A program made the position numbers and the translations under genes. Source: a virus. Taken from it: DNA of 27,103 bases. The stretch covers positions 1 to 27,103 of IMG/VR virus record IMGVR_UViG_3300049491_001022. One strand, 5' to 3'. Below the pieces are notes generated by a model. The model searched no databases and was not told where the DNA came from. It worked only from the letters and a program-made list of their open reading frames with translations. Below, one piece after another: positions 671 to 27,103 of this stretch (position 1 is the first letter of the stretch; each line of letters starts with the position of its first letter).

Positions 671-1218
671 AGGAACTCTCAGTCGAGCTGAACGATCGAA
701 CCCTGCGGTTCGACGGTGTCTCCATCGTCCCGCCCGAGTTTGTGCAGGACTTCATGCTGCGTGGCCTTCCAGTTCAGCACATGCGGCTGAGCTCGACAAC
801 CGACGAGACCGAGCAGTTCAACTCCCAAGCTGGTGATGACGCCTTGCGCCTCGTCTCTGGGGAGCCGGTGAACCTGAACTTCTCCTGGAAGCTGCCACAA
901 GAGTTCCTCAGCCTGGACGTCGTCGAGCACGTGTCGGTGGTGTTCGGCGAGCGTCTGCCTGCCCTGAAGTATGACGCTACCCAGACCGAGCTCGCAATCC
1001 ACCGGGTGGCCCAGGAGCTCCAGCAGTTCAGGAACCGCGGCCTGCTCGACCTGCTGCGCGTCATCATCTACACGCTCCATCGCTTCCGCGAGACCGGCCA
1101 GGTGTTCGGAGTCGGGCGTGGCTCGTCCTGCGCCTCGTACATCCTGTTCCTGCTTGGCCTGCACGTGGTCGACCCGATCAAGTTCAAGGTCGACCTGGAG
1201 GAGTTCATGCACGCATAG
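667..1218 (+). CDS. DnaE-like (family C) DNA polymerase, N-terminal palm piece
   Basis: This 183-residue protein ends with the first half of a bacterial DNA polymerase III alpha palm. GVGRGSS at 148-154 matches the nucleotide-binding GRGS segment of DnaE. The stretch ASYILFLLGL...DPIKF and the end DLEEFMH match the region just before the PDxDxDF catalytic motif. The protein stops there, two residues after FMH. The catalytic Asp residues are on a separate gene at 6942-7514. No PHP exonuclease domain is present; residues 1-100 are unrecognised. ATGA overlap couples it to the deaminase. Its last 14 bases overlap the end of an antisense GIY-YIG endonuclease. The endonuclease may have cut the gene, or the gene may already have ended there. 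The polymerase assignment rests on motifs and is good for the palm; activity is unproven. Confidence 0.78.
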   Translation: MKELSVELNDRTLRFDGVSIVPPEFVQDFMLRGLPVQHMRLSSTTDETEQFNSQAGDDALRLVSGEPVNLNFSWKLPQEFLSLDVVEHVSVVFGERLPALKYDATQTELAIHRVAQELQQFRNRGLLDLLRVIIYTLHRFRETGQVFGVGRGSSCASYILFLLGLHVVDPIKFKVDLEEFMHA

Positions 1219-1783
1219 CGCACTTGTTGAAGTGATACCTGTAGAGGTTCGGCCCACGCCCCTCTACTTGACAGTGCGGACAGATCTTCACTCGCTGTGC
1301 CGGGTGTTCGCCACGAGCTGCCAGGTTTAGGTTTCGTTTCGTGGCGTTCTCCGATCCACGCTCGCCAAGCCAGTTGTGCCGTCCCTCATCAACAAGCTTC
1401 TTTACTCTTCCACTTGCCGCCACAGAATAGTTCGCTGTTGAACGCGTCTTTGCCATCTCTTTGACGACATCGGAGGACCATCCCTTGCCGCCCCGCGTTT
1501 GGTTATACCCGTTCGAATCCTCGTCTCTGATGTAGGCCCGGTACTGCTCAATGAGAATAATCTCCAGGTCGTCCACTGACGCGGTAGCGCTAGCCAGAAC
1601 CTTGAATGAAAAGTTCTCTGCGCCGTGTTTACGAATAGCTCGGCAAAGAGGCGAACCCGATCCCTTGGCCGCGGACAGAAAGTGATCACGCCGCCGATCC
1701 TCAGGTCGATTTTTCGTCTGACCAATGTAGACTTTTCCGTTCACTTCGTTCGTGAGACAATACACAATGCGCACATCTTCCAT
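1205..1783 (-). CDS. GIY-YIG homing endonuclease with C-terminal zinc finger
   Basis: This is a mobile endonuclease gene antisense to the surrounding operon. The N-terminus has the GIY-YIG pattern as IVYCLTN...KVYIGQT. It continues with the conserved Arg in RRRDHF, a catalytic Glu in LIEQY, and GYNQTRGG. Near the C-terminus CPHC followed by H and KC forms a likely C2HC zinc finger, as in many phage GIY-YIG enzymes. The ATG at 1783 directly follows a GTG at 1786; neither has a strong ribosome site. Composition is more AT-rich than the neighbours, as expected for an incoming element. Its 3' end overlaps the polymerase N-piece by 14 bases and its 5' end overlaps the plus ORF 1767-1982, so it may have disturbed both. 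Confidence 0.88.
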   Translation of the reverse strand: MEDVRIVYCLTNEVNGKVYIGQTKNRPEDRRRDHFLSAAKGSGSPLCRAIRKHGAENFSFKVLASATASVDDLEIILIEQYRAYIRDEDSNGYNQTRGGKGWSSDVVKEMAKTRSTANYSVAASGRVKKLVDEGRHNWLGERGSENATKRNLNLAARGEHPAQRVKICPHCQVEGRGPNLYRYHFNKCAMRA

Positions 1784-1982
1784 CACTTATTTAGATCAAA
1801 AACCAGAGCCCCCGCCGAACCGGGTCGAACTCACCGGGTTCGGCTCGCTGTTCTTCAACTCCATGGCCGAGTGCAACGAGTACCTGGCCGAACCGCTCTG
1901 GCGGCGCATCCTCGGGCGCACGAAGTACCAGCGCAGGCTGGCTGAAGATCAAAACCGGCTGACGGCCGGCAGAGGTAAATAG
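1767..1982 (+). CDS. Unknown small ORF, possibly the remnant of a gene cut by the endonuclease
   Basis: From about 1800 to the stop the frame has the GC-rich codon use of the real genes. The peptide includes VELTGFGSLFFNSMAECNEY and a basic, Arg-rich tail ending in TAGRGK. The first ten codons lie inside the antisense endonuclease gene and look non-native. The true start may therefore have been lost or moved by the insertion; an alternative is ATG 1863. No ribosome site supports either start. I do not recognise the protein. It could be a residual 3' fragment or a short gene translated from a longer transcript. The last bases contain a TAAATA element for the next gene. Confidence 0.45.
   Translation: MRTSSITYLDQKPEPPPNRVELTGFGSLFFNSMAECNEYLAEPLWRRILGRTKYQRRLAEDQNRLTAGRGK
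1788..1794 (-). promoter_or_regulatory. CTAAATA element before the GIY-YIG gene
   Basis: On the minus strand CTAAATA lies immediately before the GTG/ATG of the endonuclease. It resembles the T4 late promoter core TATAAATA and recurs before two other endonucleases here. It sits so close to the start codon that a transcript from it would have essentially no leader, so it may be coincidental. Confidence 0.3.
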
Positions 1983-6722: not shown

Positions 6723-6942
6723 GGAAGAGATGTTCGCTGGGTACCCACTCGCCACCCGTGCGTTCTATGGCAAGATCATCTACATGATGCTGCTCAACGA
6801 CTTGGCGTACCGCAGAGGGTACTTCGACGTGCGGCTCTGTGACACCAATGACCCCTTCACCTGGTTCCGGTTCGTGGAGCAGATCCCCGACATCAAGCTC
6901 TGGTTGGACATTGATGACGACATCGAGGGAGTGACGCGGTAA
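6703..6942 (+). CDS. Small acidic protein upstream of the polymerase C-piece
   Basis: A 79-residue protein starting at GTG 6703, supported by AGGAG at 6693-6697. A GTG at 6697 in the same frame lies within that ribosome site and is less likely. It is rich in aromatic and acidic residues (LWLDIDDDIEG near the end). It overlaps the zinc-finger gene by 20 bases, and its stop shares one base with the ATG of the polymerase C-piece. No family is recognised. Tight coupling on both sides suggests it acts with its neighbours. Confidence 0.7.
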   Translation: MSKKLVEEEMFAGYPLATRAFYGKIIYMMLLNDLAYRRGYFDVRLCDTNDPFTWFRFVEQIPDIKLWLDIDDDIEGVTR

Positions 6943-7514
6943 TGGATGTCGACGTCGACGTGCCAGGAACCTTCAGGCCAGAGCTTGTCTTTCCAGGTTG
7001 GGTGCGCGCTTCGGTGGTGCGCGATGGCAAGCTGACCCCTCACCCCTGTGGCGTGTACCCACAAGCGATCGCGCAGGACCCCGTCACCGGCTTCGCCGCC
7101 ATTCCGTACGAGGAAGCCGAGGAGCTGGGGTTCTTCAAGATCGACTTCTTGCACCTGAACGTGTACTCGAGATTCGACACTCGGGCCGAGATCGACGCGT
7201 TGGTTGCCAAGGACCCAGATTGGACGCTACTTCAGCTGCCGTCCAATCACCCCAAGCTCTTTCAGCTCGCGAACCATGGTGAGCTGCTGTTGAAGCTCAA
7301 GCCCTCGAACATCGAGGAGCTGGCGGACGTGATGGCCTTGATCCGACCCGGCAAGAAGTCGCTGGTTGGCCTGTACCAGAAAGATCGAGACATGGCGCGA
7401 CGAGTGCTGTGGGCCAAGGACGAGAGCGGGTACTCGTTCAAGAAAAGTCACGCGCTCTCGTACGCGTACGTGCTGGTACTTCAGCTGCACCTGATTGAAC
7501 AGGGGCGACTGTGA
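6942..7514 (+). CDS. DnaE-like (family C) DNA polymerase, C-terminal catalytic piece
   Basis: A 190-residue protein holding the catalytic parts of a polymerase III alpha palm and a reduced fingers region. It opens with MDVDVDVP, matching the PDxDxDF motif that carries two catalytic Asp. PHPCGVY at 33-39 matches the DnaE HAGGVV segment. KIDFL at 66-70 supplies the third Asp. LFQLANHG (106-113), ALIRPGK (132-138) and FKKSHALSYAY (166-176) match conserved finger motifs. Compared with E. coli DnaE, the thumb between motif one and HAGG is nearly absent, and everything after SHxxxYA is missing. The missing N-side of the palm is on 667-1218. A one-base overlap with the previous gene and a GTGA overlap with the next tie it to the operon. 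Confidence 0.82.
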   Translation: MDVDVDVPGTFRPELVFPGWVRASVVRDGKLTPHPCGVYPQAIAQDPVTGFAAIPYEEAEELGFFKIDFLHLNVYSRFDTRAEIDALVAKDPDWTLLQLPSNHPKLFQLANHGELLLKLKPSNIEELADVMALIRPGKKSLVGLYQKDRDMARRVLWAKDESGYSFKKSHALSYAYVLVLQLHLIEQGRL

Positions 7515-8934: not shown

Positions 8935-9579
8935 CTACCGGCCGAGGGCCCAACCTGGGCCCGGGGCGCAGACAGCGCGTTTTCTGACACCATCACCGTT
9001 ATTCCACCAGCGAGTTCCACGCGTCACGCTGTTTGCCGCTTGCCAAGCACTTAGTTTTGCTTTCGTAGACTCTTGTTGGTTCCACCCAACTCTTCTAATC
9101 CCACGGTGAGATTCTGACATTTTGGCACGCGAAACTGAAGAATGTTGTCTATCTGTCCACACATCAGAAGTGCGCTTTTTGATCCACTCTCTTGTTTGTT
9201 TTCTACCACGAATCGAGTCACCAATTTTGGATTTGTGCTCTTCGCTAAGAGGTTTACCGCGTTTGATAGCGGATACCATTTTGCCAAACTCAGTCTTTAC
9301 CCAATGATATGATCTAGACTTGAGCGTGTTCCCCTTTGACATTCTCATGACGGCGCAGGCCATCTTGTATTTGTTGCTTCCAACCGACATTTTCACCAAG
9401 AGCAAGTGACACAAAAGATGCTCTCTTGCGGTTAGATCCACGAGATTGGCCACATCGTCTTGGCCGCCAAAAGATCTCGGAATGATGTGATGTCTTTCCT
9501 TGTATCCAACAACTTGTCGTCCGCGAGCATTGTTGATGATAGAATAATACCACTTGGTGTACTTTGAGTCGCTAAACAT
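8935..9579 (-). CDS. HNH homing endonuclease with NUMOD-like repeats
   Basis: A 214-residue antisense mobile endonuclease. The HNH core is ERHHIIPRSFGG followed by NLVDLTAREHLLCH. A NUMOD3-type DNA-binding motif follows (GKPLSEEHKSKIG). The C-terminus GTRWWNNGDG...GPGWALGR is shared in form with the GIY-YIG enzyme at 11126-11794, suggesting module exchange. AGGAG precedes the ATG, and a CTAAATA late-type element lies about 24 bases upstream. It is clearly AT-richer than its neighbours. Its ATG and the opposite-strand nucleotidyltransferase ATG overlap as CATG (9577-9580). Confidence 0.9.
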   Translation of the reverse strand: MFSDSKYTKWYYSIINNARGRQVVGYKERHHIIPRSFGGQDDVANLVDLTAREHLLCHLLLVKMSVGSNKYKMACAVMRMSKGNTLKSRSYHWVKTEFGKMVSAIKRGKPLSEEHKSKIGDSIRGRKQTREWIKKRTSDVWTDRQHSSVSRAKMSESHRGIRRVGWNQQESTKAKLSAWQAANSVTRGTRWWNNGDGVRKRAVCAPGPGWALGR

Positions 9580-11125: not shown

Positions 11126-11794
11126 TTATTTTCTCCCAGGGCGGAAGCCCATGTTAGTGTAGGCTTCGATCTGATCTGGTAGGACCTTGATGCACCGCGC
11201 GCCGTTCGACATCCACCGAGTTCCACGAACTGCTTCTGCGATTCGAGCTTTGCTTTCAGCAGTTCGTTTAAGGTTCTTCGTGGCTGCTGAATGTTGTGCC
11301 TTTCTCTCCGGAGTCCACATGGCAAAACTCTGCGCGGTTCTTAGTTCCCTGTACTCTGGATTTGTCCACGCTCTAGCAATTCCGCTGGCTGTTTTCTTTC
11401 GGAATTCTGGATCAGCCCAACGTTCCGTCTGCATCGCCGCGAGGCGAGCCCTATCTTCAGCGGAGTATTCAAGTTTGACCCTGCCACCTTGGCCACCAAG
11501 CGCTAGGTTCAAACTCATCTCGTCCTTGACGAGGGCCTCAGTGACGAACAACTTTTCAAGTGAGATCAGATCCTCACGCGTGTTGGCCGTGGCCAACACG
11601 GTTCTGACGTGTTGATCGCGACCATGTTTATCGATCGAGCGCTGGAGCATCTTGCCACTACCGAGATAGTTATCGTCAAGATCGTTCGTCGAATGCATGC
11701 CCACGTAGTACTTGCCTGAGCGAAGACACGTGGTTTTGTAGAGAATGTGATGCACCTGGTATTTACCCGGCCCGGCGGCCACAAAATGTAACAC
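11126..11794 (-). CDS. GIY-YIG homing endonuclease
   Basis: A 222-residue antisense mobile endonuclease. The GIY-YIG core reads HHILYKTTC...KYYVGMHS, followed by YLGSGKMLQRSIDKHG, a Glu in SLEKLFV and a NLALGGQGG turn, the arrangement of phage Seg-like enzymes. The middle is Arg/Ala-rich with tandem W-x-nP-E-R/Y repeats. The end GTRWMSNG...GFRPGR matches in form the C-terminus of the HNH enzyme at 8935-9579. The ORF begins at GTG 11794, but its first eleven residues probably belong to the interrupted host gene. GTG 11755, just after a GTAAATA element, is the likelier native start. Confidence 0.87.
   Translation of the reverse strand: MLHFVAAGPGKYQVHHILYKTTCLRSGKYYVGMHSTNDLDDNYLGSGKMLQRSIDKHGRDQHVRTVLATANTREDLISLEKLFVTEALVKDEMSLNLALGGQGGRVKLEYSAEDRARLAAMQTERWADPEFRKKTASGIARAWTNPEYRELRTAQSFAMWTPERKAQHSAATKNLKRTAESKARIAEAVRGTRWMSNGARCIKVLPDQIEAYTNMGFRPGRK
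11760..11766 (-). promoter_or_regulatory. GTAAATA late-type element at the endonuclease 5' end
   Basis: TAAATA on the minus strand is followed four bases later by GTG 11755, in frame with the GIY-YIG domain. It recalls the elements before the other two antisense endonucleases. It may mark the junction between the interrupted gene and the inserted element. Confidence 0.35.
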
Positions 11795-17484: not shown

Positions 17485-17924
17485 TGGGTGAGCTCGTTGA
17501 TCTGACCGCGTACCGTCAGGCGCGCGGCAAGGAAAAGCCGCAGGTCACGTGGGCTTCCATCAAGGAAGCCGCGCAGGACTTCCTGCTGACCGACTGGGAG
17601 AAGATGGCGCGGAACAACCGCCTGAACGAGTACTTCAAACGCTCGCTCGCGAACCAGATCGACCACGGTTCCAAGGTGAACTACATGTCGGACCTGAACG
17701 AGATCGCGGCGCTCGAGCTGAACCTCGAGCTGTACCCGATGATCTTCTTTCCGGGCACGCTGAACGGCACCCAGCAACAGTGGGTCGTGCAGTTCAAGCT
17801 CGACAAGGAAACCGTCTGCACGCCTGAGCTGGCGAGCGAGGCGTACGCTCGGTGCTTCGCGATCTTGCTTTTCCTCAAGGTGAAGCGCGAGGCGATCGTG
17901 AACGGGCTGCTCAAGAACTTGTAA
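17484..17924 (+). CDS. Unknown soluble protein, 146 residues
   Basis: A soluble alpha/beta protein. GAGGAG precedes the ATG, which overlaps the phosphoesterase stop. Conspicuous stretches are WEKMARNNRLNEYFKRSLANQ and the Leu/Glu-rich LNEIAALELNLELYPM. The end is helical and basic. The TAA stop lies inside a TGTAAC half-site of the next promoter region. No family is recognised. Confidence 0.72.
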   Translation: MGELVDLTAYRQARGKEKPQVTWASIKEAAQDFLLTDWEKMARNNRLNEYFKRSLANQIDHGSKVNYMSDLNEIAALELNLELYPMIFFPGTLNGTQQQWVVQFKLDKETVCTPELASEAYARCFAILLFLKVKREAIVNGLLKNL

Positions 17925-17968
17925 CAGTTCTGGTTCGTTACACCTGACACTCGGGACGAGTGTACAAT
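17920..17968 (+). promoter_or_regulatory. Promoter with TGTAAC/GTTACA dyad and TCGGGA
   Basis: TGTAAC (17920-17925) and GTTACA (17937-17942) form a spaced dyad. TCGGGA (17951-17956) lies six bases before TACAAT (17963-17968). ACACTC/GAGTGT also form a six-bp stem around TCGGGA. The 20-base gap from GTTACA to the -10 is the same at 22403-22441. No standard -35 is present, suggesting an activated (middle-type) promoter. Confidence 0.6.
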
Positions 17969-18000
17969 CACCCTAACGCAACGACCCTGGTGCAACATCC

Positions 18001-18180
18001 ATGGAACAGTTCATCTTCAAGTTCGGTCAAGTCGAGTTCATCTGCACGGCAACCAGCCGCTCGCAAGCGATGCTCAAGGCCGACAACTTCATCGATCGCG
18101 AGCATCCGCAAACCGAGCCGTACGGCTGGGTCGCGTCGAGCGAAGGCCCGAACATCTTCCGCATCTCGATGGGAGCATGA
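18001..18180 (+). CDS. Small protein, 59 residues
   Basis: The first gene after the 17963 promoter, with only a CTGGTG-type ribosome site. The peptide starts MEQFIFKFGQVEFICTATS and continues with a helix SQAMLKADNFIDRE. It overlaps the next gene as ATGA. Codon use is typical of the window. The function is unknown. Confidence 0.62.
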   Translation: MEQFIFKFGQVEFICTATSRSQAMLKADNFIDREHPQTEPYGWVASSEGPNIFRISMGA

Positions 18181-18407
18181 ACATGGCCCTCGAAAAGTAC
18201 TCGATGGTCGAAGCCCTGGTGCTGGACATGCGCTCCGACGGCCTGACCACGACCGACAACGCCCTGCACGACATCCACGCGGTGTTCGACCGCCTCGGCC
18301 CGTACGAGTACGCCAAGCGCTTCGGCCTGCTGGTGAACAACAGCGGCGAGGAGTTCGCCATCCAGTTCATGAGCGCGTACAACGAGCTCCGCCCGGGAAC
18401 GTACTGA
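18177..18407 (+). CDS. Small protein, 76 residues
   Basis: GGGAG precedes the ATG, which overlaps the upstream stop. It is a helical, slightly acidic protein with DGLTTTDNALHDIHAVFDRLG and SGEEFAIQFMSAYNEL. TGATG coupling links it to the next gene. No family is recognised. Confidence 0.68.
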   Translation: MNMALEKYSMVEALVLDMRSDGLTTTDNALHDIHAVFDRLGPYEYAKRFGLLVNNSGEEFAIQFMSAYNELRPGTY

Positions 18408-18619
18408 TGATCACGACTACACAAGCCAAGCGCCTCCGCGACGAGTGGTCACGGCTCGCCAAGTCGCACGTCGAGGTCGAGCAGATCGGCTCGTTCCTGT
18501 ACGCGTTCGGCTCGGAGCTCGCGGTTCGCCGCCTGGCGCACGAGTTCAAGAGCTTCGACTGCGGGTTCAGCTCTAACCTCAACACCTGGTACTTTCGAAA
18601 GGACGCTCCCAATGCGTGA
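18407..18619 (+). CDS. Small protein, 70 residues
   Basis: The start shares bases with the preceding stop (TGATG). The N-terminus is a charged helix (AKRLRDEWSRLAKSHVEVEQ). The C-terminal half ends in an aromatic segment, NLNTWYF. It overlaps the next gene by 8 bases. The function is unknown. Confidence 0.65.
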   Translation: MITTTQAKRLRDEWSRLAKSHVEVEQIGSFLYAFGSELAVRRLAHEFKSFDCGFSSNLNTWYFRKDAPNA

Positions 18620-18851
18620 TACCCCGATCCACCTGAACGGCCCCTTCACCCTGGCGTTCGAGCAGCGCTGCGTCTGGGTCATTCGTGGTCGTGACGGTGT
18701 CGCGATCTGCGAGCTCACTCGCCAGCTGATCGACGGCTCGCGTCAGATCGACAAGTACCCGGACGGCAAGATCCGCTCGGAGCAGGCTCGCGAAGAAGAG
18801 GCGAAGTTCGTGCTCGCCGCGATGAACGCCGCGTACGTAGGTGCCAAGTGA
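18612..18851 (+). CDS. Small protein, 79 residues
   Basis: A beta-rich first half (FTLAFEQRCVWVIRGRDGVAIC) followed by a helix with REEEAKFVLAAMNAAY near the C-terminus. It overlaps both neighbours, the next as GTGA. Such short beta-then-helix ORFs are common in phage operons; no family is recognised. Confidence 0.68.
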   Translation: MRDTPIHLNGPFTLAFEQRCVWVIRGRDGVAICELTRQLIDGSRQIDKYPDGKIRSEQAREEEAKFVLAAMNAAYVGAK

Positions 18852-19839: not shown

Positions 19840-20086
19840 ATTCACCGAAGAGCAGATCAAGGGCTGGCATGCGATGGTCGGCAAGCGGGTGTGGAAGAAC
19901 CCGAAGACCACCTCGAAGTTCGAGCCCAAGCCCTTCAAGAGCGGTCGCAAGATCAACACCGTCAAGGCCGTCGCCGTGCACGATCACACACCGAACCTGG
20001 CGTTCGTGTTCGAGGAAGACGGCTCGCAGGTCGAGTGCTGGCGGTGCAGCCTTGCTCCCGAAGGTCGTTATCCCGACGAGACCTGA
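19832..20086 (+). CDS. Small protein, 84 residues
   Basis: ATG 19832 is preferred to the in-frame GTG 19820 because GGAG lies at the right distance. A basic, Lys-rich centre (WKNPKTTSKFEPKPFKSGRK) is followed by beta-rich KAVAVHDHTPNLAFVFEE and ECWRC. Its last 19 bases overlap the end of an antisense GIY-YIG gene, so the native C-terminus may have been altered. The function is unknown. Confidence 0.65.
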   Translation: MREFTEEQIKGWHAMVGKRVWKNPKTTSKFEPKPFKSGRKINTVKAVAVHDHTPNLAFVFEEDGSQVECWRCSLAPEGRYPDET

Positions 20087-20802
20087 GCTCGCTTTTTAGC
20101 TTCGCGAGTAAGAGCAACCTTTCTCATTGTAGCTCCAAAGTTCGCAGGTTTAGGATTAGGCTTGCCAGTGAGCGTGGCGGAGATCTTGCTCTTCACCGCA
20201 TTCGTCTGTGTTGTGTCTTTCTTAATGCCAACGAGCTCCCCAGTCACCCATCGAGGATCGTTCCTCCTGACGCGTAATGCAGTGCCATCCGCAGTTCTTG
20301 CCTGGATCAACCCCTTCATCTTCACGCTGTCGAAGGTGATGCCTGCGTTCTGACCTCTTAGCTCGCCGCTTGCGAGCCGCGGGTCATCTTTCAAAACAAG
20401 AAACTTGTTGCCAAGCCCATCCACCACCGAGACCTTTCCTCGCCTTCTAGCCGCCTGAGCTTCCCTCGCCGCGAGAGACCAACCGCGGGTTCCATCTCCA
20501 CCATCTGTCTGGTTAGTCAGAGACCCTCTTCCTAGATCCGCCCTACCATACTTGGCAATCAGTTCAATCTCCAACCGCTTCGCTTGTTCAACGTCAAGAT
20601 CAATTGCAACACGCTCGATCTTGGGGGCGGCGCCAGCTTCACGGAGCTTTACCAGAACGTTGTGAAAGTGATCGTTCTTTAGCCGCGACTTGCGATGCGT
20701 GACGTGATACCAGTGAGACATGTCACGATCGTTCTGGCCGAGCCCGACATAAAACGGCTCATCATCCCGAAAGTAGACATACACGAAATAGTTGTTAGTC
20801 AT
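20068..20802 (-). CDS. GIY-YIG homing endonuclease with tandem C-terminal repeats
   Basis: A 244-residue antisense mobile endonuclease. The GIY-YIG core reads YFVYVYFRDDEPFYVGLGQ, with His/Arg in HWYHVTHRKSR, Glu in LEIELIAKYG and the LTNQTDGGDG turn. The C-terminal half has two copies of a DPR-x-x-x-GEL-x-G repeat (DPRLASGELRG and DPRWVTGELVG), probably DNA-binding. AGGAGG precedes ATG 20802. Unlike the other three antisense endonucleases, no TAAATA element is seen upstream. It starts 38 bases from the divergent RNA ligase gene. Confidence 0.9.
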   Translation of the reverse strand: MTNNYFVYVYFRDDEPFYVGLGQNDRDMSHWYHVTHRKSRLKNDHFHNVLVKLREAGAAPKIERVAIDLDVEQAKRLEIELIAKYGRADLGRGSLTNQTDGGDGTRGWSLAAREAQAARRRGKVSVVDGLGNKFLVLKDDPRLASGELRGQNAGITFDSVKMKGLIQARTADGTALRVRRNDPRWVTGELVGIKKDTTQTNAVKSKISATLTGKPNPKPANFGATMRKVALTREAKKRAQVSSG

Positions 20803-20840
20803 AGAATCGTTCCTCCTGTACCTATGTAGCGAGAGAGAAA

Positions 20841-22136
20841 ATGGTTGCCGAACTTGTGATCCCCGAAACACGCCGTCTCGCAACGTTCAGGACGGTGGAC
20901 GCCATCGAGCCAATCGAAGGGGCCGACGCCATCGAGCTTGCTGTGCTCGGTGGGTGGAAGGTGGTATGCAAGAAGGGCGACTTTAACGTAGGTGACCCGT
21001 GCATCTATCTGGAATGCGACGCGTTTCTGCCAGACGGCGTGCCGGCCTGGCAGTTCCTGATCGACAAGTCGCCACGCATGATGAACGGCGTCAAGGGGCA
21101 CCGCCTGCGCACGATCAAGCTCCGCGGCCAGATCAGCCAAGGCCTGATCCTGAAGACCAGCGATCACCCAGCGACGAAGCTCGTGCTGGCTCTCGACGAA
21201 GCCGCGGCGGCCAGTGTCGAGGGCTGCACGCCCGAGCAGATCGAGGAAGCGACGTACCTGCGCAAGGGCATGGACGAGCACAGCCTCGACCCGCGCGATC
21301 TGAACCTGAACAAGTTGCTGGGCATCGTGAAGTGGGACCCGCCGATGTCGGCCCAACTCGCTGGCATGGCTGAAGGCCTGTTCCCGTCGTTCATTCGCAA
21401 GACCGACCAGGAGCGTGCCCAGAATCTGAAGGAAGAGATCTTCGGCTTCGACGACCTCGTCATTCCGGCGAACCCCGACCTGAACCGGCCGGAGATCATC
21501 CGCCCGGCCAAGGGCGACCGGAACGCGAAGTACGAGATCACGATGAAGCTCGACGGCTCGAGTGGCACGTACTTCGTGCGCAGCAAGTTCAGCGAGCCGA
21601 TCGGGGTCGATGGCGTGCGACTGGATCCGCCAGAAGTCGGTGTGTGCTCGCGGAACCTCGAGCTCAAGATCAACGAGGCGAACGCTGAGAACACGTTCGT
21701 CAAGGTGGGTCGCGAGACTGGGCTGTTCAAGGCGCTCGAGCAATACTACGAGTCGACTGGGCAGGCGATCGCGGTGCAAGGCGAGGTCATGGGGCCAGCG
21801 ATCCAGGGGAACCGCGAAGAGCTCAAGACACACGAGTTCTACGTGTTCGACATCTTCGACATCGGCGCACACGCGTACCTGTCGCCAAGCCAACGCGCGG
21901 CGGCTCTCGGATGGCTTGCTGGGTACGGCGCCAAGATCAAGCACGTGCCGATCATCGCTCACGAGGCGAACCTGCACGACACGCTCGGCATCGCGACCAT
22001 GGACCAGCTGATCAAGTTCGCTGAAGGGCCGAGCATCAAGCACCCGATCCGCGAGGGCCTGGTGTTCAAGCGGCTCGACGGGCAGTTCACGTTCAAGGTC
22101 ATCTCGAACAAGTACCTCGAGAAAGAGAAGGACTGA
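20841..22136 (+). CDS. RNA ligase of the DRB0094/Rnl5 type
   Basis: A 431-residue ATP-dependent ligase. The N-terminal OB-like domain (LATFRTVDAIEPIEGADAI, then GGWKVVCKKG) is typical of the Deinococcus DRB0094 RNA ligase group. The nucleotidyl-transfer lysine is Lys236 in KLDGSS (motif I). VQGEVMGP, FYVFDIFDI, EGLVFKRL and FKVISNKYL give the later motifs. It probably seals RNA nicks, possibly restoring RNAs cut by host defences. The start follows GAGAGA. An antisense endonuclease lies just upstream and may have displaced the original promoter. Confidence 0.87.
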   Translation: MVAELVIPETRRLATFRTVDAIEPIEGADAIELAVLGGWKVVCKKGDFNVGDPCIYLECDAFLPDGVPAWQFLIDKSPRMMNGVKGHRLRTIKLRGQISQGLILKTSDHPATKLVLALDEAAAASVEGCTPEQIEEATYLRKGMDEHSLDPRDLNLNKLLGIVKWDPPMSAQLAGMAEGLFPSFIRKTDQERAQNLKEEIFGFDDLVIPANPDLNRPEIIRPAKGDRNAKYEITMKLDGSSGTYFVRSKFSEPIGVDGVRLDPPEVGVCSRNLELKINEANAENTFVKVGRETGLFKALEQYYESTGQAIAVQGEVMGPAIQGNREELKTHEFYVFDIFDIGAHAYLSPSQRAAALGWLAGYGAKIKHVPIIAHEANLHDTLGIATMDQLIKFAEGPSIKHPIREGLVFKRLDGQFTFKVISNKYLEKEKD

Positions 22137-23282: not shown

Positions 23283-23522
23283 ATGCGCGCCAAATTCCTG
23301 TTCGTCATCGTCATGCCATTCACCGTTGCGACCATCGCGGCGTGCGGTGGCGACGCCGATCCCAAGCTGAAGATCGGCTCCAAGGTCGAGACCCGTGCCG
23401 TGCCGCAAGTCGCCGAGTTCTGCTACGACGGCGTGGTGTACCTCATCGTGGACCGTGGTGTCACGGCCAAGATCAACAAGGACCGCCAGGGCGCATTCTC
23501 AACGTACGTGAACTGCCAATGA
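23283..23522 (+). CDS. Small lipoprotein, 79 residues
   Basis: The N-terminus MRAKFLFVIVMPFTVATIAAC is a lipoprotein signal. The lipobox IAAC places Cys21 at the cleavage site, so the mature form of about 59 residues is lipid-anchored. Gly-Gly-Asp follow. The mature part has two further Cys (FCYDG and the last-but-one residue), able to pair in the periplasm. TAGAAT lies five bases before the ATG, but GAGG is also there, so it is uncertain whether this is a promoter. ATGA overlap with the next gene. Small phage lipoproteins often block superinfection or act as spanins; neither is shown. Confidence 0.75.
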   Translation: MRAKFLFVIVMPFTVATIAACGGDADPKLKIGSKVETRAVPQVAEFCYDGVVYLIVDRGVTAKINKDRQGAFSTYVNCQ

Positions 23523-23857
23523 ACCTCACCTCCCGCCCCCATCGAAACGAGCTGACGCTCGCCCAACATGTCTTCGTCGACGCGATCCGCCAGCGCATGG
23601 CGGAGGAGCTTCACGAGTGGCTGCCGGCCGTCGAGAAGAACGAGATCGCGATGATGCGCAAGCTCGACTTGATCGACCTGCACAGCACCCTCGGCCGTGA
23701 CATTCGGAACGAGTACGAGCTGCACATGCCCGAGCACGATGTCACGCGCATCTGGATCGCCGCCGGCCCGTGCAAGGCTGGTGAGTGCGATGAGCACCCG
23801 TGCCACCCCGACAACTTCAGCATGTCGGTCATCGAGCGCCTCAAGGAGCTGTTGTGA
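23519..23857 (+). CDS. Unknown soluble protein with Cys/His C-terminal motif
   Basis: A 112-residue protein, start overlapping the lipoprotein stop. The first half is helical (FVDAIRQRMAEELHEWL). A segment TRIWIAAGPCKAGECDEHPCHPDNF carries three Cys and two His that could hold zinc. It overlaps the next gene as GTGA. The gene lies in the operon leading to the TPM-like protein. No family is named. Confidence 0.7.
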   Translation: MNLTSRPHRNELTLAQHVFVDAIRQRMAEELHEWLPAVEKNEIAMMRKLDLIDLHSTLGRDIRNEYELHMPEHDVTRIWIAAGPCKAGECDEHPCHPDNFSMSVIERLKELL

Positions 23858-24963
23858 ACACCACCCTGATCTTGATGTTCGCGATCCCGCTGCTCGGCGC
23901 CGTCGCGGCCTGGTACCTGAACCGCAAGGAACTGCCGTGGTTCGCTGGCCCGCTGTTCGCGCTTCCTGGCATGACCCTCATCGGCATCGTGTTCGCGTGC
24001 TCGTACGGCGCCGCGGTCAGCGACACCGAGATCTGGAACGGTCAGATCACGAGCAAGAACCGAGTTCACGGCACGTACGAGCAATCGTACGAGTGCCGCT
24101 GCCACACCGAGTACAGTGGATCTGGCAAGGACCGTACCTCTCGTCGAGTCTGTGACACGTGCTACGAGACGCACTACACCGTGAAGTGGAGCTGCCAGAG
24201 CACGGTCGGCGGCATCGGCATCGACAGTCGCGACAGCACCTGGCAGTCGGTGTACAACACGCCCGACCCGGCTCGGTACAGCTCGATCGCGGTCGGCGAC
24301 CCGGCCTCGCGCTCACACACGTACACGAACTACGTGCAAGCGGTTCCTGAGAGCCTGTTCAACGCCTCGCCCAAGAACCTTGGCGCCAAGTTCGCCGGGC
24401 TGCTGCCACCGTACCCCGACCAGGTGTACGACCTGTACCGCATCGACCGCTTCTTGACCCCAGGCTTCGCCTTCACCGACGTCGCGGCCTGGAACAACGA
24501 CATCAGCTTGCTGCTCCGCGAGCTTGGCCCGAAGAAGCAGGTGAACTTGATCGTGGTGGTTGCCAAGACCGCTGATGCGTCGTACCAGTACGCCTTGCGC
24601 GACCACTGGGAAGGCGTGAACAAGAACGACGTGGTGCTGGTGATCGGCTCGACCGACGGGCAGCACATGGAGTTCGTGTCCGTGCTGAGCTGGACGAAGA
24701 ACGAGCTCTTCAAGGTCGAGCTGGCCGACGGAGTGCGCGACGTGAAGGTCATCGATCGCACCAAGATCCTGCCGTTGGTCGCCGCTCAGATCGCGAAGAA
24801 CTTCGAGCGTCGGCACATGGCTGAGTTTGAGTACCTGAAGGGTCAGATTGATCCACCCGCCTGGCTGATCTGGCTGACCGTTGTGTTGCTTGTTGCCGGG
24901 TACGGCGGAGGCGCCCTGTACCTCAACCGTGTCGCCGCAGGTACGTTCAGGGGCCGCAGATGA
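23854..24963 (+). CDS. Membrane protein with TPM-like domain
   Basis: A 369-residue protein starting at GTG after AAGGAG. Two spans at about residues 4-20 and 32-50 and one at about 341-362 bracket a large external part. Cys81, Cys83, Cys100 and Cys103 form a possible metal or disulfide cluster. Residues about 225-330 contain VNLIVVVAKT..., NDVVLVIGS and a helical end. This matches the pattern of TPM (YgcG/Psb32) domains, in which a strand pair and a G-x-x-x-VLLV segment recur. TPM proteins are often encoded beside LemA in bacteria, and a LemA-like gene follows here. The TPM call is by pattern and moderately sure. Confidence 0.68.
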   Translation: MNTTLILMFAIPLLGAVAAWYLNRKELPWFAGPLFALPGMTLIGIVFACSYGAAVSDTEIWNGQITSKNRVHGTYEQSYECRCHTEYSGSGKDRTSRRVCDTCYETHYTVKWSCQSTVGGIGIDSRDSTWQSVYNTPDPARYSSIAVGDPASRSHTYTNYVQAVPESLFNASPKNLGAKFAGLLPPYPDQVYDLYRIDRFLTPGFAFTDVAAWNNDISLLLRELGPKKQVNLIVVVAKTADASYQYALRDHWEGVNKNDVVLVIGSTDGQHMEFVSVLSWTKNELFKVELADGVRDVKVIDRTKILPLVAAQIAKNFERRHMAEFEYLKGQIDPPAWLIWLTVVLLVAGYGGGALYLNRVAAGTFRGRR

Positions 24964-25124
24964 AGAAGACGAAGCTGCACCTTATGACCGTGGCCGACAT
25001 CCAGATCCTGGCGGCCACGCTGGCCAAGAAGAACAAGACCACGCTTGACGTCGAGCTCCATCACCAAGCCATCATTCGTGGCTTCACGAGCTGGGCTGAC
25101 TTGCTGCACTGGCGATCATCCTGA
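24960..25124 (+). CDS. Small protein, 54 residues
   Basis: The start overlaps the TPM-like gene's stop (ATGA), with AGGGG upstream. The peptide is basic and helical, with LMTVADIQILAATLAKKNK and an aromatic end GFTSWADLLHW. It ends just before a dyad and a promoter. The function is unknown; packing supports it as a gene. Confidence 0.6.
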   Translation: MKKTKLHLMTVADIQILAATLAKKNKTTLDVELHHQAIIRGFTSWADLLHWRSS

Positions 25125-25128
25125 AATC

Positions 25129-25163
25129 ATTGGTGTCAGCGGGTCACCAATCGACCGTACAAT
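25129..25163 (+). promoter_or_regulatory. Promoter and dyad before the LemA-like gene
   Basis: ATTGGTG (25129-25135) and CACCAAT (25145-25151) form a perfect seven-bp inverted repeat with a nine-base loop. TACAAT (25158-25163) follows six bases later. The dyad covers the -35 region, so it may be an operator, or a terminator for the gene before. GGAG precedes ATG 25201. Confidence 0.55.
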
Positions 25164-25200
25164 CCACCTGCAAGTCCATCATCAACCTGGAGTTCTGAAC

Positions 25201-25782
25201 ATGCACAAGTCTCAACGTGGCGCCATGAGCGTCGGCCTCATCGGTACCCTCGTCGCGGTGGGCCTCGCCCTCGTGATCATCGTTCCCTCGTACATCAGCG
25301 CGGCGAACTACGGCAATCGCACGGAGCAGGCGCTGCTCACGAAGGTCGAGAACAACCAGAACATCTACGCCAACGGCACGCAGAAGATCGTCGAGATCGC
25401 TCAGGTGCCGGCCATGTACGTCGCCGACATCACCAAGGTGACGCAAGCCGCGATCGGCGGCCGGTACGGCGCGAACGGCTCGCAGGCCGTGTTCCAGATG
25501 CTGCGCGAGCAGAACCCGCAGCTCGACGCCAAGATGTACACCAAGATCCAGCAGGTGATCGAGGCCTTCCGCGACGAGTTCAAGAACAACCAGACCTCGA
25601 TGCTGGACATGCGGAACTCGTACAAGACGGCCCTTGGGAACGTGTGGGAAGGCTTCTGGCTCGCCCGTGCCGGGTACCCGAAGACCGACCTGAAGCAGTT
25701 TGACATCGTGACGACCGACAAGGCCGCCGAGACCTTCAAGACGCACCGCGACACCGGCATCCAGCTGCGCCCGGCGAACTAA
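25201..25782 (+). CDS. LemA-family protein
   Basis: A 193-residue protein with one N-terminal span (about residues 10-33) and a helical body typical of LemA: VENNQNIYANGTQKIVE, then AMYVADITKVTQAAI and a later helix IQQVIEAFRDEFKNNQ. LemA proteins are membrane-anchored helical bundles of poorly known function that occur beside TPM and PspA-like genes. It has its own promoter and a GGAG site. The motif IVTT near the end is also usual in phage and bacterial relatives. It opens a three-gene unit with two coiled-coil proteins. Confidence 0.78.
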   Translation: MHKSQRGAMSVGLIGTLVAVGLALVIIVPSYISAANYGNRTEQALLTKVENNQNIYANGTQKIVEIAQVPAMYVADITKVTQAAIGGRYGANGSQAVFQMLREQNPQLDAKMYTKIQQVIEAFRDEFKNNQTSMLDMRNSYKTALGNVWEGFWLARAGYPKTDLKQFDIVTTDKAAETFKTHRDTGIQLRPAN

Positions 25783-25812
25783 ACGCCAACCCCTAACTTC
25801 AAGGACCCGATC

Positions 25813-26460
25813 ATGGCATGGCTCGACACCCTCAAGGGACTCGTCGTCGAAGACGACAAGCCCACCGTCGCTCAGACGCCCGCGCAAGTTGGCGCCAAGC
25901 CCCTCGCCTCTGGCGCACCGGTTTCGTACGCACAGCAGGACAACGAGTTCGTTCCTGCGCTGCGGAACGCGATCAAGCAACGGCCGACCGCCTTCACCGC
26001 GTTGCTCGCGAACGCTGACAAGCTCTCCTCGGTGATTCCCGACCAGAACATGCGCCTCAAGGCCGCGTTCGAGATGGTCAAGGGCGAGGGGCGCGGCATG
26101 AATGAGCTGCTCCAAGCGATCGAGATCCACGCCGGCGACCTGGCCTCACAAGAGCGCCAGTTCGACGCCGCCATGGACAAGCAGAAAACGGTGGCGGTCG
26201 GTGCGATGACGAACGAACTCGCCGGACTCGAACCCAGCTCGGCCAACGCCCGCCAACAGCTCGAGGCCCTTGCTCGACAGGCGCAGGCGCTGAACGAGTT
26301 GATCAGCTCGAACACGACCAAGGCCGGCGAGCTGACCATGAAGATCCAGGCCGAGGAACGCCGATTCGTCGAGGCCAAGCAGCGATTCACCATGGCCCTA
26401 CAAGTTGTGCAAGCCGAGCTGCAAGGCCAGAAGCTGGCAATCTCGTCCACCCTTTCCTGA
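25813..26460 (+). CDS. Soluble coiled-coil protein
   Basis: A 215-residue protein with no membrane span. Residues about 80-215 are continuous helix with heptad-like Leu/Ala spacing. An acidic N-terminus (LVVEDDKPTV) and a Pro/Ala linker come before it. AAGGA precedes the ATG. It lies between LemA-like and PspA-like genes and could bridge them, for example as a cytoplasmic scaffold. No family name is given with confidence; a distant PspA or TelA-like helix is possible. Confidence 0.68.
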   Translation: MAWLDTLKGLVVEDDKPTVAQTPAQVGAKPLASGAPVSYAQQDNEFVPALRNAIKQRPTAFTALLANADKLSSVIPDQNMRLKAAFEMVKGEGRGMNELLQAIEIHAGDLASQERQFDAAMDKQKTVAVGAMTNELAGLEPSSANARQQLEALARQAQALNELISSNTTKAGELTMKIQAEERRFVEAKQRFTMALQVVQAELQGQKLAISSTLS

Positions 26461-26487
26461 ACATCATCAACCACTGGAGCTAGAATC

Positions 26488-27103
26488 ATGGCACTCGCCG
26501 ACGACGTCAAGACCAAGTCCTTCTGGGCACGTCCCGAAGGCACCACGGGCATGATTGCCCTGGCGCTCGGAGGCGTTGGCCTCTGGGTTGCTCTCCCCGC
26601 GCTGCTGGCCTTCACGGCCGGCTTGATCACGCTGCTCGGCCAGACCATCACGGTGGTCATGCTGTGCTTGGTGCTCGCCGCCATCCTGTTCTTGATCACG
26701 AACAAGAAGGTGCAGACCCTCGTCTCGTACATGTTCAAGTCCGTGATGCGCAAGATCACCGGCGTGTTCGTCGAGATCGACCCGATCGGCATCATGAAGT
26801 CGTACATCGAGGACCTTAAGGCCAAGCGCGACACCATGGCCTCCTCCAAGGACAAGCTCCAGGGGCAGATCACGGTGCTCACCCGCCAGATCACGATGAA
26901 TGACCAGCAGTACGAGAAAGCGATGGCGACCGCCAAGTTCGCGAACGACAACGGCAAGGCCGCCGCGTTCCAGGTGAACAGCCGTCAAGCCGGCCGCCTG
27001 CAGAAGCTGAACAAAGAGAGCTTCATTCCGTTGCTCACCCAGATGAAGATGCACCTGCGCGCCCTCGACAAGTACTACGAGGTCACGGGCACCGTGATCG
27101 ACG
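26488..27103 (+). CDS. Membrane-anchored PspA-like coiled-coil protein, cut by the window edge
   Basis: The frame is open from ATG 26488 to the right edge (at least 205 residues, no stop). Two spans occupy about residues 20-44 and 50-71. Then MFKSVMRKITGVFVEIDPIG leads into a long coiled coil (about 105-195, including YIEDLKAKRDTMASSKDKLQ). The order resembles PspA, where a short amphipathic start and a DP turn precede a hairpin coiled coil, but with a membrane anchor added. GGAG lies nine bases before the ATG. With LemA-like and TPM-like neighbours this suggests a membrane-stress module. The PspA link is inferred from layout. Confidence 0.65.
   Translation, partial: MALADDVKTKSFWARPEGTTGMIALALGGVGLWVALPALLAFTAGLITLLGQTITVVMLCLVLAAILFLITNKKVQTLVSYMFKSVMRKITGVFVEIDPIGIMKSYIEDLKAKRDTMASSKDKLQGQITVLTRQITMNDQQYEKAMATAKFANDNGKAAAFQVNSRQAGRLQKLNKESFIPLLTQMKMHLRALDKYYEVTGTVID

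Follow-up and report, generated by a model that had tools for sequence, protein, structure and literature searches.

Operons in which a Snf7 protein with a transmembrane (TM) segment, or PspA, is encoded together with an ABC ATPase, a permease, a PBPB-OmpA protein and often an AAA+ ATPase have been described in bacteria, and a tie between membrane remodelling and solute transport has been proposed for them (PMC11237479, mSystems 2024, section 18). The same article proposes that TPM proteins act in the assembly or repair of membrane complexes. The Jug huge phages carry, beside terD, a pspA-like gene that is transcribed in the gut (PMC12363816). Comparative genomics has made the bacterial operon known, and huge phages with a pspA-like gene have been mentioned before. 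In the open-access literature we found no report of the operon in phages or of a linkage between the operon and TPM-LemA, nor any description of a phage LemA/TPM pair; searches on phage ESCRT-III likewise gave no account of this module. Here we analyzed the IMG/VR virus record IMGVR_UViG_3300049491_001022 over its 27,103 bases (hereafter the window), which is apparently a fragment, and in particular the seven + strand open reading frames (ORFs) that run from position 23283 to its end. An earlier sequence-only reading had pointed to TPM-like, LemA-like, coiled-coil and PspA-like genes in this region and interpreted them as a phage copy of a bacterial membrane-stress module. The four genes are present as described, all on the + strand, and very probably form the front of a jumbo-phage inner-membrane module in which a phage-wide TPM-LemA pair is joined to a captured bacterial ABC/PspA-like operon.

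The locus is composed of two cassettes. The first encodes a TPM-like membrane protein (23854..24963, +, GTG start) and a LemA-like protein with one N-terminal span (25201..25782, +). The second starts with a coiled-coil protein (25813..26460, +), the first gene of a bacterial-type PspA-like/ABC operon, which is alignable with its phage and Lak homologues and has an equivalent position in bacterial operons. It is followed by a membrane-anchored PspA/Snf7 (ESCRT-III)-like protein (26488..27103, +) with an N-terminal hydrophobic hairpin and then a long helical hairpin; the gene is cut by the window end, 205 amino acids being encoded here and about 340 in relatives. In jumbo-phage contigs, the order RNA ligase, TPM, LemA, coiled coil, PspA-like protein, binding protein-OmpA fusion (SBP-OmpA), permease and ATPase was found in L046/L047, L049, L050/L052 and L058, and it holds in L045 and L051 as far as these contigs go. 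The joined order persists in contigs that have clearly diverged, with TPM proteins about 50-60% identical to that of the window, and seven of the eight carrier records, 90-360 kb in length, contain terminase genes. The predicted linkage in relatives was therefore borne out, although it is specific to this jumbo-phage lineage. As to the proposed module, its TPM-, LemA- and PspA/ESCRT-III-like members are judged from their sequences to be envelope-associated and lie together in relatives, but they do not constitute one conserved phage stress module, since the TPM-LemA pair usually occurs without a PspA-like gene.

Beyond what the sequence-only reading had seen, the gene order in relatives places the PspA-like gene within an ABC-importer operon, which is cut here by the contig end, the window itself containing only the first two operon genes (coiled coil and PspA-like). 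Matches to the PspA-like protein among annotated phages were confined to 15 Lak megaphages, and we collected 16 PspA-like loci in viral contigs and 35 in bacterial genomes, the latter mostly from Bacteroidota, plus Undibacterium, Serratia microhaemolytica and a proteobacterial metagenome-assembled genome. Wherever the jumbo-phage contigs continue, the operon reads coiled coil, PspA-like protein, SBP-OmpA fusion, ABC permease and ABC ATPase. The complete operon is also present in Lak-A1 (L006, 5058-11424), although public Lak records leave it unannotated, and the five genes are found in bacterial loci L010, L014, L016, L017, L019, L028, L031, L035, L037 and L040. Domain searches in jumbo-phage contig L004 identified OmpA (E 3e-17), permease (E 4e-7), ABC ATPase (E 2e-27) and SPFH (E 2e-16) domains, and the Lak binding protein matched NMT1 (E 2e-9). 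Walker A and an SGG signature are present in all of the 11 phage ABC ATPases listed. In bacteria, the five genes are common to 12-14 of the 16 loci examined, while other flanks differ, so that the operon looks self-contained; five loci (L016, L031, L035, L037 and L040) have an AAA+ gene in addition, which was not seen in the others. The supposed bacterial linkage of LemA, TPM and PspA-type proteins did not hold for this operon, as no LemA, TPM or PspA_IM30 homologue was present around the bacterial loci within the stretch examined, up to 10 kb on each side. As a separate observation, L004 encodes a second, TAXI-type binding protein (17615-18682; TIGR02122, E 5e-29) after the ABC ATPase, which is kept in most jumbo relatives and the N-terminus of which resembles that of SBP-OmpA.

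Scans of the window proteins against Pfam (at E<=1), PHROGs and NCBIfam returned no match named TPM, LemA or PspA, and single-protein scans of viral contigs (queries P0002 and P0003) found no match. The family assignments were consequently sought in models, profiles and relatives, with a mixed outcome for the profile searches that had been suggested: LemA was recovered by profile-profile comparison, and weak matches to PF04536 and PF04012 came from relatives. The AlphaFold2 model of the PspA-like protein had a pLDDT of 72, with the helical hairpin mostly above 90, and ranks 1-11 of the Foldseek search were all Vipp1/PspA structures (probability 0.95-1.00), closely followed by CHMP1B/IST1 and Asgard ESCRT-IIIB. 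The VIA Z-scores of 12.1-12.8 are barely above the 11-12 given by unrelated coiled coils, so the hairpin alone is no proof of ESCRT-III kinship. The most frequent Pfam family among the PspA-like members was PF04012, weakly matched by 8 of 35 at E<=0.01 (best 2e-4); the L029 member reached 26.7 bits, under the threshold of 33.9. A direct profile comparison of the family with canonical PspA (hhalign) failed (2.6%). The earlier PspA-like call is thus supported by the structural ranks and these weak matches, and the protein is classed as PspA/Snf7-like, not as PspA. The two added spans had been considered unusual. However, the alignment shows an N-terminal hydrophobic stretch common to bacterial and phage homologues, and because the bacterial proteins have it too, the two predicted spans are best regarded as a family trait and not as a phage addition. 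Ten jumbo contigs cluster together with support in the tree of PspA-like proteins, close to the two Pseudomonadota sequences, and a second group consists of Lak and L057. More than one capture of the operon by phages is likely, but the long branches make any count of captures unsafe.

The TPM-like protein is composed of two N-terminal spans, a beta domain, a TPM-fold domain (residues ~177-320) and a C-terminal span, the beta domain carrying four cysteines (C81, C83, C100 and C103, alignment numbering) that are invariant or nearly so. Its AlphaFold2 model, built from 50 phage sequences, had a pLDDT of 93. Foldseek alone gave weak results, with LMTP1 (9h70, probability 0.85) as the lone TPM match, whereas a second alignment of the Foldseek candidates placed TPM-domain structures at ranks 1-11, among them AtTLP18.3, BA41, Psb32, 7tbr, 2kpt, 2kw7 and mycobacterial supercomplex subunits, with Z 7.0-8.9 and root-mean-square deviations of 3.1-3.6 A over 108-134 residues, all within model residues ~177-320; unrelated structures came next at Z ~6.3. 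MCM helicase rows in the VIA results were rejected, as only scattered parts were aligned across the membrane helices of the model. In sequence comparisons, the protein matched phrog_2087 (E 9e-83), PF04536 was weakly matched by 3 of 50 relatives (best E 5.6e-4), and hhalign of the phage against the bacterial TPM family was weak (39%, E 3e-4). We therefore class the protein as TPM-like from its modelled fold, below the Pfam cut-off and not as a PF04536 member, in agreement with the initial call. The distribution of positive charges suggests a periplasmic position for both the beta domain and the TPM domain.

For the LemA-like protein, hhalign against bacterial LemA gave 94.5% with an E value of 7.5e-8, a pairwise value that points to a remote relationship, and the best PDB profile match was LemA 2etd (E 0.0029). 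None of 17 family members passed the Pfam cut-off for LemA (PF04011). The profile evidence supports homology to bacterial LemA, as had been proposed, and hence the designation LemA-like. The protein also matched phrog_1383 (E 3e-56), which PHROGs labels "virion structural protein"; separately, many public records carry the same label for this family.

The TPM-LemA pair is widespread. Matches to the TPM-like protein occurred in 470 public phage records and matches to the LemA-like protein in 449, and LemA was present in all 103 viral loci having TPM. By a gap rule it was scored as adjacent downstream of TPM in 89 of the 103; the remaining 14 showed mostly overlaps of 60-110 bases, which result from a crude choice of start codons, and a few larger gaps. 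The pair spans Straboviridae, Ackermannviridae, Demerecviridae, Agricanvirus, Asteriusvirus, Emdodecavirus and Polybotosvirus, and also occurs in Saclayvirus, ICP1, XacN1 and FLC9. Its members are usually annotated as "hypothetical" and often lie near genes of nucleotide metabolism and not near those for heads or tails. The LemA gene of Lak-A1 sits apart from the PspA-like operon, and no TPM was found beside this LemA gene. Two further arrangements were observed: in Bacillus phage G, which has a Gram-positive host, the LemA/TPM order is reversed (L100, 3941-5897), and in E. coli phage Sharanji (L103, 848-4402) a TelA-like gene, a further envelope-stress-type neighbour, lies two genes upstream of TPM, with LemA after TPM.

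Three smaller ORFs accompany the four genes. A candidate lipoprotein of 79 amino acids (23283..23522, +), with a signal peptide and a lipobox-like IAAC, weakly matched phrog_7772 in PHROGs (E 1.5e-6); as no homologue was found in the relatives' loci, it is only a candidate, accessory member of the module. The following ORF of 113 amino acids (23519..23857, +) overlaps both the lipoprotein and TPM genes and shows weak similarity to DUF6794 in Pfam (E 1.3e-4, under the cut-off); a homologue lies upstream of TPM in the close relatives L049 and L050. An ORF of 54 amino acids (24960..25124, +), between TPM and LemA, was assigned to no family in Pfam and PHROGs scans. The first four ORFs of the locus overlap by 4 bases each and the later gaps are 27-76 bases, all on one strand, from which we expect that the genes probably form one transcription unit; scans of the locus for promoters and terminators gave nothing above chance. 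In every gene tested, the nonsynonymous rate (dN) was well below the synonymous rate (dS), which is near saturation, so that only the direction of the difference counts. Taken together with the homologues and gene order kept across independent contigs, this argues that the ORFs are not chance ones.

Elsewhere in the window, an ORF at 2-670 begins with ~97 bases encoding an SPFH C-terminus, 71% identical to that of L004, in frame with a dCMP-deaminase-like protein. As these two genes are ~95 kb apart in relative G011, the junction is either a real fusion or rearrangement or a chimeric contig end. By eye, pieces resembling bacterial-type DNA polymerase III alpha (DnaE), apparently split, are found among 541-1218, 1205-1786 (-) and 6942-7514; next to the first piece, the other strand encodes a GIY-YIG-like ORF, and more GIY-YIG/HNH-like ORFs lie on the - strand at 8935-9579, 11126-11794 and 20068-20883.

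These findings led us to consider how the module might act. The PspA-like protein, anchored by its N-terminal hairpin, would polymerise or form a scaffold on the cytoplasmic face and thereby stabilise or shape the inner membrane where the ABC importer sits; a small solute would be caught by the binding protein, which its OmpA domain holds to peptidoglycan, and passed on to the permease; and TPM and LemA, both predicted to face the periplasm, would help to assemble or repair membrane complexes, so that all parts together would keep the envelope and uptake of the infected cell working. Because the set extends into a complete importer operon in related viruses, these viruses may rebuild the envelope and uptake machinery of their host during infection. 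We propose such a joint envelope-plus-uptake function tentatively, with a confidence somewhat short of even. Its boldest version is rather doubtful, namely that an ABC importer coupled to ESCRT-III is encoded by jumbo phages in working form. Polymerising on the host inner membrane and fastened to the cell wall by its OmpA domain, it would reshape the envelope and bring in a limiting solute during infection, with TPM-LemA as assembly factors, and Lak and the jumbo clade would have captured the operon from bacteria independently. Several points weigh against the joint function: (i) the window ends before any transporter gene, so the continuation of its operon is inferred from relatives; (ii) the PspA-like operon occurs without a TPM match in several jumbo-phage records (G010, G012 and G013, with loci L048, L053 and L054), and the cassettes are therefore separable; (iii) the binding domain of the L004 SBP-OmpA protein had no Pfam binding-protein match, OmpA alone being recognized; (iv) a search of phage records, made without a positive control, gave no homologue of the AAA+ protein that accompanies the bacterial operon and would be the candidate for disassembling a polymer; and (v) the membrane topologies are predictions from hydropathy and charge.

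A purely protective role, in which the PspA-, LemA- and TPM-like proteins mend or seal a host membrane that infection has damaged, the transporter being incidental or serving to sense the envelope and not to import a nutrient, has a modest chance of being correct. It agrees with the probable ESCRT-III/PspA fold, with a TPM fold common to the membrane-complex repair or assembly proteins Psb32 and AtTLP18.3, and with the retention of TPM-LemA in many phages that lack the transporter operon. However, binding-protein and ABC genes follow the PspA-like gene wherever jumbo contigs continue, in Lak and in many bacteria, and since they do so with intact ATPase motifs, transport looks integral to this cassette; moreover, no PspF, PspB or PspC turned up, although no search was aimed at them. 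The separate occurrence of either cassette, the lack of LemA or TPM near the bacterial operons and the distant position of the Lak-A1 LemA gene would also suit two unrelated cassettes that merely adjoin in one jumbo-phage lineage without a joint function. We find this improbable in view of the joined order kept in diverged contigs, the short gaps on one strand, and the membrane spans shared by TPM, LemA and the PspA-like protein. The membrane location, together with the early/middle-type neighbourhoods of TPM-LemA (nrd, rnlA, pseT, alc and thymidylate synthase), could in addition fit superinfection exclusion or defence, with the proteins altering the envelope to block entry of rival phage DNA, but this is very unlikely: PADLOC gave no real defence match, only a coiled-coil hit and a generic OmpA/MotB domain, the latter explaining the ZorB matches, and a pair so widespread and conserved across phage families would seem unlike typical exclusion genes. 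Least probable of all is that the LemA-like protein, and perhaps also the TPM-like one, forms part of the virion, as stated in public annotation (the phrog_1383 label and a "putative structural protein" in Erwinia phage Desertfox). The relationship to LemA and the N-terminal membrane span speak against it, as does the location in nucleotide-metabolism neighbourhoods away from head and tail genes, and no proteomic source for the label was found; having weighed the label, we did not adopt it.

Phage transporters are usually viewed as single auxiliary genes, whereas here a whole importer operon comes with an ESCRT-III-like membrane protein, and it would become testable whether viruses control membrane shape and uptake in bacteria. 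Separately, the TPM-LemA pair, so far labelled hypothetical or virion structural, can be given a definite fold and a probable place of action, and it is testable in cultured phages such as ICP1 and Aeromonas phage PX29.

Among the closest known systems is the bacterial Snf7-TM/ABC/PBPB-OmpA operon (PMC11237479), with which the phage module shares a membrane-anchored PspA/Snf7-like protein, a binding protein-OmpA fusion, a permease and an ABC ATPase; in the bacterial loci examined here, the coiled-coil gene is likewise present, and the gene order is that of the phages. The module differs in being encoded by jumbo phages, the loci of which yielded no AAA+ gene, and, in this lineage, in the addition of TPM-LemA, usually a separate TAXI binding protein and, in some contigs, SPFH. 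The module of Lak megaphages, which are Prevotella phages, has the same five genes in order, but its PspA-like protein is ~26-28% identical and lies on a separate tree branch, and the Lak LemA gene is elsewhere in the genome. The Jug phages are likewise described as huge phages with a pspA-like gene, beside terD and with no ABC transporter or LemA mentioned (PMC12363816). From PspA/IM30/Vipp1 (PF04012), to which its long helical hairpin aligns, the phage PspA-like protein is distinguished by the N-terminal hydrophobic hairpin. Finally, the bacterial LemA-TPM cluster (PF04011 with PF04536) resembles the phage pair in the adjacency of two envelope proteins, whereas the phage order is TPM then LemA, with one TPM, and the phage TPM, in contrast to bacterial signal-peptide TPM proteins, carries additional spans and a beta domain with four cysteines and falls under the Pfam cut-offs.

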